IMG/VR virus record: IMGVR_UViG_3300047443_000053
Location: 1 to 34,992 of that record
Origin: a virus
Strand: one strand, 5' to 3'
Length of the DNA: 34,992 bases
The notes under the pieces are model-generated. The model ran no database searches and was not told the origin of the DNA. It saw nothing but the letters and a program-made list of their open reading frames with translations. The position numbers and the translations under genes were made by a program. Below are positions 13,034 through 14,830 of the stretch, piece after piece (position 1 is the stretch's first letter; every line of letters begins with the position of its first letter).

Positions 13034-13534
13034 ATGGCAGCAAGGGAAAAAATTACGCTCGGATGGCGCAGGCCCGCGGGGGCGAATGCGCCGCAGCCCG
13101 CGCCGCAAGATGACTATGTCGAAATCGCAGAGCCTGCAGCGCCGCAGCTGGCGCTGGTGACGGCACACCAGGTGGTAAAGGTTGATCCGTGGACGCCGCC
13201 AGATCCACTGGATGTCTGTCTTGAACTGTGGAAGACATCCATGCGCCATGATGACAAGGATCTCGGCTACAAAAACCAAAACACGCTGCGAGGAGACGAC
13301 GAGGGAAACGCCGATACGTCGCAGCAGCGCTGTGACAATGAGATAGCCGACGCGACGCACGCTTGCATCCATGACCTGCGGGCCTGCCACCGATGGGCAA
13401 TCTATCGCCTGTGCGGCGTAGCCACCGTATGGAACTTCCCGCACATGGATTACCTGGACATCGCATTGGAGGCTCGCGCGGCGCTGGAGGACAAGCTTCG
13501 AAAAAATATTGCAACCCGAGCACTGTTCGATTAG
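13034..13534 (+). CDS. Hypothetical protein in the late-regulator (Q) position
   Basis: A 166-aa protein from ATG 13034, with GGGAG upstream and 2 bp from the previous stop. The N-terminus is Pro/Ala-rich; the C-terminal half (DATHACIHDLRACHRWAIYRLCGVATVWNFPHMDYLDIALEARAALEDKL) is helical and contains Cys and His. It is the last early gene, directly before a strong terminator and the start of the late region, where lambdoid phages carry an antiterminator or late activator. That role is inferred from position only; no Q-family motif is seen. Confidence 0.6.
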   Translation: MAAREKITLGWRRPAGANAPQPAPQDDYVEIAEPAAPQLALVTAHQVVKVDPWTPPDPLDVCLELWKTSMRHDDKDLGYKNQNTLRGDDEGNADTSQQRCDNEIADATHACIHDLRACHRWAIYRLCGVATVWNFPHMDYLDIALEARAALEDKLRKNIATRALFD

Positions 13535-13575
13535 ACTGCGAAGCACTGGGTGTCTTCGCTCGCCCGGAAAAAAGC

Positions 13576-13604
13576 AAAGCCAGCCAAAAGCTGGCTTTTT
13601 GTTT
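13576..13604 (+). terminator. Strong intrinsic terminator ending the early operon
   Basis: AAAGCCAGC (13576-13584), a CAAAA loop and GCTGGCTTT (13590-13598) give a 9-bp stem followed by TTGTTT. It lies 42 bp after the last early gene and just before the promoter at 13616. Confidence 0.9.
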
Positions 13605-13615
13605 GCGCTGCCGCA

Positions 13616-13645
13616 TTGAAACGCTGTCTATATGTACAGTAGAAT
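13616..13645 (+). promoter_or_regulatory. Strong sigma70-type promoter at the start of the late region
   Basis: TTGAAA (13616-13621), an 18-bp spacer, and TAGAAT (13640-13645). Both boxes are one or two bases from consensus. A LexA box fills the spacer. Predicted transcription begins near 13652 and runs rightward into the non-coding hairpin-rich segment and then the late genes. Confidence 0.7.
13624..13639. promoter_or_regulatory. LexA (SOS) box within the promoter spacer
   Basis: CTGTCTATATGTACAG fits CTGT-N8-ACAG exactly, with an AT-rich centre, and extends to TA on the right. It matches 16 of 20 positions of the E. coli-type operator TACTGTATATATATACAGTA. Its place between -35 and -10 would give tight repression by host LexA, with release on DNA damage. 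Confidence 0.8.
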
Positions 13646-13651
13646 TCACTC

Positions 13652-13995
13652 GCGGCGCGCTAGCTTAGGTGCTGAATCCGTCGGAACAACAGTGCTCCTC
13701 GCAGAGAGGGGGCGCACACGCTGCCGGCGAATAAGGTCGGGTTAGCTCCGGCCACCGCGCTATGAAGCATGGGCTCTGCCACCTGTACCCATTGGGGCCA
13801 GGGTGGAGTCCATTCTTGATAGTGAATGCGCCGTGCTGAGGCGCAGGGACGTGCGAAGGCAGACATGGAAACGGCGACGCATAGCGTTTAGGACCGCCCA
13901 TACCGCTGTGACACTTAGCAGCAAGCCGGAGATCAGCGTCGGCCACTATCACCCAATTCAAGCCCGATGTCCGAATCCGGATGTCGGGCTTTCGC
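13652..13995 (+). ncRNA. Hairpin-rich untranslated segment: candidate small RNA or long leader
   Basis: About 340 bp between the LexA-box promoter and the first late gene, without a convincing reading frame. Complementary arms recur: GCTCCTC with GAGGGGGC (13694-13713), GGTCGG with CCGGCC (13735-13753), CCACC with GGTGG around 13779-13806, CATTC with GAATG (13811-13828), GCGCC with GGCGC (13829-13844), ACGC with GCGT near 13880. It ends in a terminator-like hairpin at 13960-13991. It could be a regulatory RNA, an antitermination element or just a structured 5' leader. Confidence 0.45.
13960..13995 (+). terminator. Terminator-like hairpin inside the late leader
   Basis: AAGCCCGA (13960-13967) pairs with TCGGGCTT (13984-13991); an inner partial stem is possible. 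The following TTCGCATTT is a poor T-run, so termination may be partial or conditional. Confidence 0.5.
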
Positions 13996-14010: not shown

Positions 14011-14097
14011 ATGCACATAGGCACCATGATGTTGATCTGGTGGGGCATGTGGCTCCCGCGTCAACGTACCGAGTCTCCTTCCACATCTTCCAGATGA
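14011..14097 (+). CDS. Possible 28-aa hydrophobic peptide
   Basis: ATG 14011 has GGAG 5 nt upstream and opens MHIGTMMLIWWGMWLP, a short hydrophobic stretch, then a polar tail RQRTESPSTSSR; stop at 14095. The good ribosome site and the position on the late transcript favour a real small membrane peptide or a leader peptide for the following gene. Length alone prevents certainty. Confidence 0.4.
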   Translation: MHIGTMMLIWWGMWLPRQRTESPSTSSR

Positions 14098-14103
14098 TGG
14101 TTT

Positions 14104-14135
14104 GCCCGCCGCCGCAAGGTGGGCGGGCTCCTTTT
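14104..14135 (+). terminator. Terminator-like hairpin before the 14153 gene
   Basis: GCCCGCC (14104-14110) pairs with GGCGGGC (14122-14128), followed by TCCTTTTATT. The stem is strong and the T-run interrupted. It lies only 18 bp before the next ATG, so it may act in conditional termination of the late transcript or in controlling translation. Confidence 0.55.
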
Positions 14136-14152: not shown

Positions 14153-14830
14153 ATGCCCGACTTCGAAATCTCGATTGCGAGCAATCTCAAGCAGATCCAG
14201 AAGTCGCGCGGCGCGTTCGCCTACCAGCAAATGCCGTTTGCCACGGCGACCGCGCTCACGGCATTGGCCAAGCGCGTGAAGGAGGAGGAGGTCAAGAACT
14301 TGGCCGCAACCTTCCAGAACCCGTCGCCATTTACGCTGCGTTCGGTACGCTCGACAGCGGCGCGCAAGGATAGTCCGGTTGCCACTGTGTTCGTGATGGA
14401 CAAGGCGGCGGAGTATCTCGACCCGTACGAGAAGGGCGGTGTGCACAAGCTGCCCGGTCGCGCGCTGCTCAACCCGAAAGACATTGCACTGAACCAGTAC
14501 GGCCAGCTGCCGCGCCGCACGCTCGCCGCGCTCAAGGCGCGCAGCGACATCTTCATTGGTCCGGTCAAGACCAAGCACGGCATCGTGAACGGAGTGTGGC
14601 AGCGCGCAGCAGCGACTGCAGTCGTCACGAACAAACGCACAGGCAAGACACGCATCAGTAAGAAGGGCGTCAATGCAACCGGCAAGCTCAAGCTGCTGAT
14701 CCGGTTCGGCGATGCGCTGCCAGTGCGACAGCGGCTGAACTACCAGGCCCGCGCCAAGCAGGTGATTGATCGCGAGTTCAACCGCGAGTTCGGCAAGGCG
14801 ATGGCTAAGGCGATTGCGACGGCGAAGTAA
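14153..14830 (+). CDS. Conserved phage protein of unknown function
   Basis: A 225-aa basic, soluble protein from ATG 14153 (AGGCGG upstream). It begins MPDFEISIASNLKQIQKSRG; helical N-terminal part with ATALTALAKRVKEEEVKNLAATFQNP, then beta-rich AATVFV-like segments and a basic C-terminus (KTRISKKGVNATGKLKLLIRFGDALPVRQRLNYQARAKQVIDREFNREFG). The general look, charged with a FxNPSPFTLRSV segment, is like minor structural or head-tail accessory proteins of phages, but I cannot name a family. It is flanked on both sides by terminator-like hairpins. Confidence 0.7.
   Translation: MPDFEISIASNLKQIQKSRGAFAYQQMPFATATALTALAKRVKEEEVKNLAATFQNPSPFTLRSVRSTAARKDSPVATVFVMDKAAEYLDPYEKGGVHKLPGRALLNPKDIALNQYGQLPRRTLAALKARSDIFIGPVKTKHGIVNGVWQRAAATAVVTNKRTGKTRISKKGVNATGKLKLLIRFGDALPVRQRLNYQARAKQVIDREFNREFGKAMAKAIATAK

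Follow-up and report, generated by a model that had tools for sequence, protein, structure and literature searches.

A kissing-loop RNA module with an exchangeable insert in the late leader of a lambda-like phage and its relatives

The gap at positions 13652-13995 of the window (the whole stretch of DNA that was analysed, one complete IMG/VR record of 34,992 bases) is near certainly, on comparative sequence evidence, a genuine structured non-coding RNA locus. By the same evidence, the 3ʹ half of its RNA is a member of a phage RNA class that has no name and is absent from Rfam. Sequence matches indicate that the module defining this class is carried unannotated by hundreds of unrelated bacterial viruses, usually heading the late genes. 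As far as the literature searched shows, the kissing contact within the module, its exchangeable insert, its non-enterobacterial breadth and its general late-leader position are new; neither the 17-mer GAATGCGCAGGCTGATG in print nor a description of the module was found there.

The late-leader locus

The window comes from a lambda-like phage, as is evident by the GpA-type terminase and lambda-family portal encoded downstream of the RNA locus, and both it and its relatives are probably beta-proteobacterial phages. The features surrounding the RNA are the following.

13034..13534, + strand: gene of 166 aa directly upstream, in the late-regulator (Q) position; placed by position, function presumed
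13509..13537, + strand: candidate late promoter TTGCAA-N17-TAGACT, read from sequence; overlaps the 3ʹ end of the 166-aa gene
13576..13606, + strand: intrinsic-terminator-like hairpin where tR' would lie in a late leader (terminator scan)
13616..13645, + strand: predicted sigma-70-type promoter TTGAAA-N18-TAGAAT (promoter scan), predicted start near 13652
13624..13639, + strand: LexA-like box CTGT-N8-ACAG between the -35 and -10 elements, read from sequence
14083..14135, + strand: conserved element GTCTCCTTCC and terminator hairpin, 5ʹ of the first late gene (comparison with relatives)
14153..14830, + strand: first late gene, a minor tail protein (family match, phrog_1924)

The layout of a lambda-type, Q-dependent leader (promoter, early terminator and a gene in the Q position) is present, with a 166-aa gene that matches no family, a Q family included. 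Relatives of this gene occur in loci L002, L003, L014-L019 and L133. Read by eye, the same late-promoter layout recurs in L002, L003, L014, L015, L017, L019 and L133, and terminator hairpins stand at the equivalent tR' site in L002, L003, L014, L019 and L133. The window copy of the module is flanked by the candidate late promoter and terminator on its 5ʹ side and by late genes on its 3ʹ side; to judge from this sequence context, its slot is the late leader that runs from the Q-position gene to the late genes. The closest relative by layout is L133, in which the Q-position gene is followed by a promoter, a terminator, the upstream hairpin, the module, another terminator and the GTCTCC element. 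More widely, GTCTCC(T)TCC and, after it, a terminator hairpin lie 5ʹ of the first late gene in the window, L002, L003, L005, L014, L021 and L133.

Architecture of the RNA

Read 5ʹ to 3ʹ, the module consists of the outer stem, AAU, hairpin 1, the insert, hairpin 2 and the closing strand of the outer stem. Its parts, together with the remainder of the RNA, are placed as follows in the window.

13652..13757, + strand: 5ʹ domain of the RNA (in silico fold)
13760..13822, + strand: upstream hairpin CTATGAAGCATGG...CCATTCTTGATAG (fold; equivalent in L133)
13817..13951, + strand: conserved RNA module (comparative structure, covariation)
13817-13824/13944-13951, + strand: outer stem TGATAGTG/CACTATCA, 8 bp, closing on GUGAA / CAC
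13828..13844, + strand: hairpin 1, GCGCC-GUGCUGA-GGCGC, with loop GCUGA at 13835-13839 (covariation)
13845..13924, + strand: variable insert (comparison with plasmid copies)
13925..13943, + strand: hairpin 2, GCCGG-AGAUCAGCG-UCGGC, with loop UCAGC at 13933-13937 (covariation)
13835-13839/13933-13937, + strand: kissing contact GCUGA/UCAGC (covariation; invisible to single-sequence folding)
13960..13992, + strand: terminator-like 14-bp hairpin with weak U-tract TTTCGCATTT, 3ʹ end of the RNA (fold)

Loop 1, GCUGA (usually GCUGAU), and loop 2, UCAGC (usually AUCAGC), are reverse complements of each other. The features by which the class is recognized, namely the outer stem GUGAA/CAC, complementary loops and a late-leader position, are all found in the window.

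An earlier note on this DNA had described the gap as hairpin-rich and without a good gene, and both descriptions hold. The 347-nt stretch folds at -151 kcal/mol compared with -135 kcal/mol for shuffles (z -2.55), better than 99 of 100 shuffles; the open frames that cross 13652-13995 are unsupported by relatives, and module lengths are evenly spread modulo 3 (33/29/38). The six arm pairs that it counted are better replaced by the comparative structure. The terminator-like end that it noted does contain a 14-bp hairpin, but the U-tract is weak and the hairpin is absent from the terminator-scan list. The L133 equivalent of this 3ʹ hairpin has five T.

The upstream hairpin (3ʹ strand) and the outer stem (5ʹ strand) share sequence, and the two pairings compete. 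Over 88 loci, the 5ʹ strand of the outer stem pairs at -16.1 kcal/mol with its own upstream hairpin and at -12.7 kcal/mol with sequence farther upstream (P 1e-7). In the window, the alternative folds lie 2.2 kcal/mol apart with the kissing contact left uncounted. On these modelled energies, the module may alternate between two folds by way of the upstream hairpin. The 5ʹ domain has no relative among the loci compared; from its sequence, it is possibly another, divergent module that ends in the hairpin GGUCGG-GUUAGCU-CCGGCC-ACC. Upstream of that hairpin, a GCUAGC can pair with GUUAGC.

Covariation and the kissing contact

That the gap holds a candidate phage RNA, as the earlier note proposed, is strongly supported by covariation, a check that it had asked for beforehand. 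The test covered 38 distinct sequences with the insert removed and used 500 shuffles and five measures. Standard pairs fill 97.5% of cells in the 38 sequences, compared with 85.6% in shuffles, and two-sided changes are seen in 14 of 23 pairs (6.2 in shuffles). The covariation score is 0.321, against 0.088 when shuffled and at most 0.078 in slid controls; relatedness of the sequences is uncorrected in the shuffles and retained in the slid controls. On none of the five measures do any of the 500 shuffles reach the observed value. Helix 2 (hairpin 1) and helix 3 (the kissing contact) each have two-sided changes in four of their five pairs. Helix 4 is fixed by the search pattern and so carries no covariation evidence; its closing pair is A-U in HK629 in place of G-C. 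A descriptor of the module finds 110 copies in the loci compared and none in shuffled or reversed sequence.

Additional evidence for the contact comes from a further scan, in which the usual loop 2 was excluded so as to catch changed loops. Of the 14 distinct pairs of non-canonical loops, 9 share five or more complementary nucleotides, compared with 3.7 when permuted (1/2000), in a test that counts Watson-Crick pairs only and, at 14 distinct loop pairs, is modest in size. Loops that have changed together include GCUAAU/AUUAGC in L260, GCUCA/UGAGC in L185, UGGCA/UGCCA in L220 and GGUGGUG/CACCACC in L158. Furthermore, mismatches in the supported helices comprise 14 G-U and 3 A-C on the + strand. 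This preference for G-U over A-C, together with module lengths that are spread over the three frames, argues for an RNA read on the + strand rather than a protein gene or a DNA palindrome. A third variant, with the hairpin 1 loop GAAAGCAGA (GGTGCGGCGTGGAAAGCAGACACGC...GCCGGAGTAGCGACCGGCCACC), keeps the structural frame of the module in L096 (position 9493), L172, L173 and L207, and loop-loop complementarity is not visible in these four.

Distribution of the module

Searches with the flanking proteins brought up phages of like gene order whose slot is differently filled. In the closest of these (L002, L003, L014, L015 and L021) it contains other non-coding or coding cargo, so that synteny alone did not reveal the RNA. 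A megablast search of phages gave no match; sensitive DNA searches gave Salmonella, Variovorax and Klebsiella plasmids and the phages HK620 and HK633. Alignment of these plasmid and phage matches yielded a 24-base anchor, the pattern of which occurs in at least 119 IMG/VR stretches, and the structure was read from the IMG/VR matches side by side.

Named carriers, in which the module is mostly unannotated, are HK620, HK633, HK629, PY54, PAJU2, P1-type phages and an Ackermannviridae phage; plasmid carriers are known from Salmonella, Klebsiella and Variovorax. In PAJU2, HK620, HK633 and HK629, the module stands downstream of the antitermination gene Q and upstream of the lysis genes, in HK620 between pR'/qut and the terminator tQ; in PY54 it is placed directly before the lysis genes. 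Among 70 other loci, the commonest named first downstream genes are those for the terminase small subunit, endolysin and holin, in a few loci each. In P1, the module region falls within a tRNA cluster, where it coincides in part with the annotated 'plp' frame. This frame (putative lipoprotein, L366:1455-1832) also overlaps a tRNA on the opposite strand and is possibly no genuine gene. In KP6, an Ackermannviridae phage (L369, 291-3030), about 2.7 kb without annotated genes hold the module and an STnc100 above cut-off. In complete E. coli genomes, 156 of 5,426 match one module plus flank, and 14 of 15 among the matches listed have no annotation at the site. Among 398 Pseudomonadota species genomes, only 2 contain a 22-base anchor, in keeping with a phage element.

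Exchange of the insert

Inserts are 31-218 nt long (median 76) and hypervariable, 99 of them falling into 87 clusters at 70% identity. In some pairs of loci the upstream sequence is 99-100% identical and the inserts 53-59%, and the reverse pattern is also found. For example, L034 and L104 are 100% identical over the upstream 150 nt and 59% identical in the insert, while L034 and L118 share a 97% identical insert and 57% of the upstream sequence. Judging by these identities, inserts recombine against constant flanks. The window's insert type is also present in a Variovorax plasmid copy (81% over 69 nt), and a Salmonella plasmid copy carries a related insert. Wadjet-type defence genes follow the Variovorax plasmid copy (L033:4001-4069) at a distance of about 1 kb.

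Complementarity of inserts to the flanks of their own phage shows no excess (mean 9.9 nt, compared with 10.0 nt for other loci) and so indicates no target; an antisense action on the own phage was rejected on this comparison. T-arm-like pieces were likewise not convincing, with 1 against 0.6 expected in inserts and 5 against 2.3 upstream.

Relation to known RNAs

The Rfam search that the earlier note had proposed gave nothing relevant in the window, at the gathering cut-off or at E up to 10. This includes STnc100 (RF02076), which has no match in the window at its 47-bit gathering score or at E up to 10. STnc100 and the window RNA are alike in having an outer stem (GGUGAAU 5ʹ, CACC 3ʹ), then hairpin 1, a variable stretch and a hairpin 2 abutting the outer stem, and in a prophage position near Q. 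However, hairpin 1 of STnc100 is CCCCC-UGUGCGG-GGGG and its hairpin 2 CCGGG-AGGCA-CCCGG, which differ from those of the window. The window has the GUGAAU outer stem and abutting hairpin 2 of the STnc100 outer frame and lacks the C-rich hairpin 1 and CCGGGAGGCACCCGG hairpin 2. Moreover, any loop contact in STnc100 comprises at most 3-4 bp and is not upheld by its variants, unlike the kissing contact of the window. Identification of the window RNA as STnc100 was rejected on the missing score and the different hairpins; on sequence and structure, it is better called a sister class of STnc100/PasD. PasD is a northern-validated, Hfq-bound prophage sRNA encoded near Q and a structural homologue of STnc100 (preprint, PMC13192938); Hfq binding is known in this sister group only, from the preprint for PasD. 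STnc100 stands in tandem with a window-type module in L032 and KP6. A scan with an STnc100-like pattern gave mostly chance matches, with an outer partner in 3 of 82 and none convincing.

The un-named late leader RNA of HK620, between pR'/qut and tQ, contains the same module with canonical kissing loops. It is longer (about 590 nt), has an extra upstream stem-insert unit, and shows no LexA promoter of its own. The lambda-type late leader (6S RNA) and StxS, a lambdoid late-leader transcript that is a stable trans-acting sRNA (PMC7873438), resemble the window RNA in lying between Q and the late genes and in ending at a terminator. However, 6S RNA and StxS are short pR' products that end at tR' and lack the module, whereas the window RNA lies 3ʹ of the tR'-position hairpin and has a predicted promoter of its own. 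GOLLD and ROOL are, like the window RNA, large structured phage or prophage RNAs of unassigned function, often near tRNAs; the architecture of the window RNA is smaller and different. The put RNA of HK022 is about 65 nt long, with two hairpins, and follows the early promoters. Compared by description, it is like the window RNA a phage RNA with hairpins 3ʹ of a promoter.

The LexA-like promoter

The earlier note took the promoter upstream of the gap to be SOS-regulated. For the window phage the sequence agrees: a LexA-like box overlapping a sigma-70 promoter, as expected of the LexA regulon, is present at 13624-13639 as a predicted site. It is the only CTGT-N8-ACAG box in the window, where 0.26 are expected; 22 of 100 shuffled 35 kb sequences contain at least one. 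As a family trait, SOS control was rejected, such a box lying within 500 nt upstream in 1 of 100 other module loci; L133 and nearly all other loci have no LexA-type promoter upstream of the module. The box could be private to the window phage or fortuitous. If functional, the promoter would let the window phage produce the RNA at an early stage of induction, ahead of late-promoter activity.

Function and alternative explanations

The best explanation at hand is a late-leader RNA that acts in trans, its scaffold presenting a swappable specificity domain; read from sequence, this proposal is about evenly poised between right and wrong. The constant scaffold would be formed by the outer stem, GUGAAU, hairpin 1 and hairpin 2, locked by the kissing loop. 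The RNA would be made within late transcripts, as in relatives, and in the window phage it would also be transcribed from its own LexA-controlled promoter upon prophage induction, with a 3ʹ end near 13992. Less certainly, it would be a stable small RNA acting in trans, with the scaffold protecting the insert and presenting it as a specificity domain, and phages might swap inserts to change the bound partner, which could be an RNA of the host or of a rival, or else a defence protein. The module structure lends itself to testing by mutation and compensation, and the insert varies as if under diversifying exchange. A broader, tentative extension holds that this is an antibody-like phage RNA class, in which a constant scaffold carries a hypervariable insert against host or rival-phage targets and STnc100/PasD is one sister branch.

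In lambdoid phages, the interval from the late promoter to the lysis genes is known to encode Hfq-binding sRNAs, for a reason that a review calls unclear (PMC7873438). The class described here occupies this slot in Escherichia, Pseudomonas, Yersinia and probably beta-proteobacterial phages, and its presence in the laboratory phages HK620, HK629 and P1 type makes the function directly testable.

An unlikely alternative is a cis-acting late-leader element, similar to put or a Q leader, whose nascent fold controls terminator read-through or late mRNA processing. In the window, as in HK620, HK633, HK629 and PAJU2, the late promoter, terminators and late genes surround the module, and the conserved alternative pairing with the upstream hairpin (-16.1 vs -12.7 kcal/mol) would suit a switch. 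However, copies outside late leaders (the P1 tRNA cluster, plasmids), the hypervariable inserts and the window's own promoter and terminator-like end point away from it. The late-transcription element suggested by the earlier note suits the late-leader position, but no finding speaks for it rather than for a free RNA, given the copies elsewhere, the insert and the promoter.

Slightly less credence is due to an architectural RNA similar to GOLLD or ROOL, the modules of which would form a multimer or space RNA islands with tRNAs. It would account for the tandems of module and STnc100-type RNA in KP6 and the Salmonella plasmid, for tRNAs near L053, L058, L112 and L144, in P1 and beside an STnc100 copy, and for the L017 slot, which holds a tRNA and a permuted tmRNA; GOLLD and ROOL also share the niche of the module (PMC12286853). 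However, neither of them has a sequence or Rfam covariance-model match in the window, the kissing contact lies inside one module, and most loci have no nearby tRNA.

An element acting as DNA, such as a mosaic boundary or recombination fold, is improbable. While flanks and inserts recombine freely and phage modules change at the site, G-U outnumbers A-C on one strand (14 vs 3), the loop-loop covariation spans an insert of 31-218 nt, and the STnc100/PasD relatives are expressed RNAs (PMC13192938). An unannotated small protein gene can be practically discounted: frames cross the region and some phage records call a 'hypothetical protein' or Plp there, but module lengths spread evenly over the three frames, inserts are of any length and base pairs change on both sides.

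Other RNAs in the late-leader slot

Other structured RNAs were met at equivalent positions. The late-leader slot of L017 (5379-6742) contains a tRNA-Ser, another tRNA-like match and a permuted tmRNA of beta-proteobacterial type. Shortly 3ʹ of the Q-position gene, L018 (6330-6419) has a match above cut-off to sRNA-Xcc1 (RF02221), with a promoter-like sequence of its own. Upstream of the module in the HK620 leader, the part at L030:2686-2837 has counterparts in many lytic phages, among them Felixounavirus and Kuttervirus-like ones, and may, from its sequence, be another un-named RNA; the HK620 leader is matched by 908 phage records in all.
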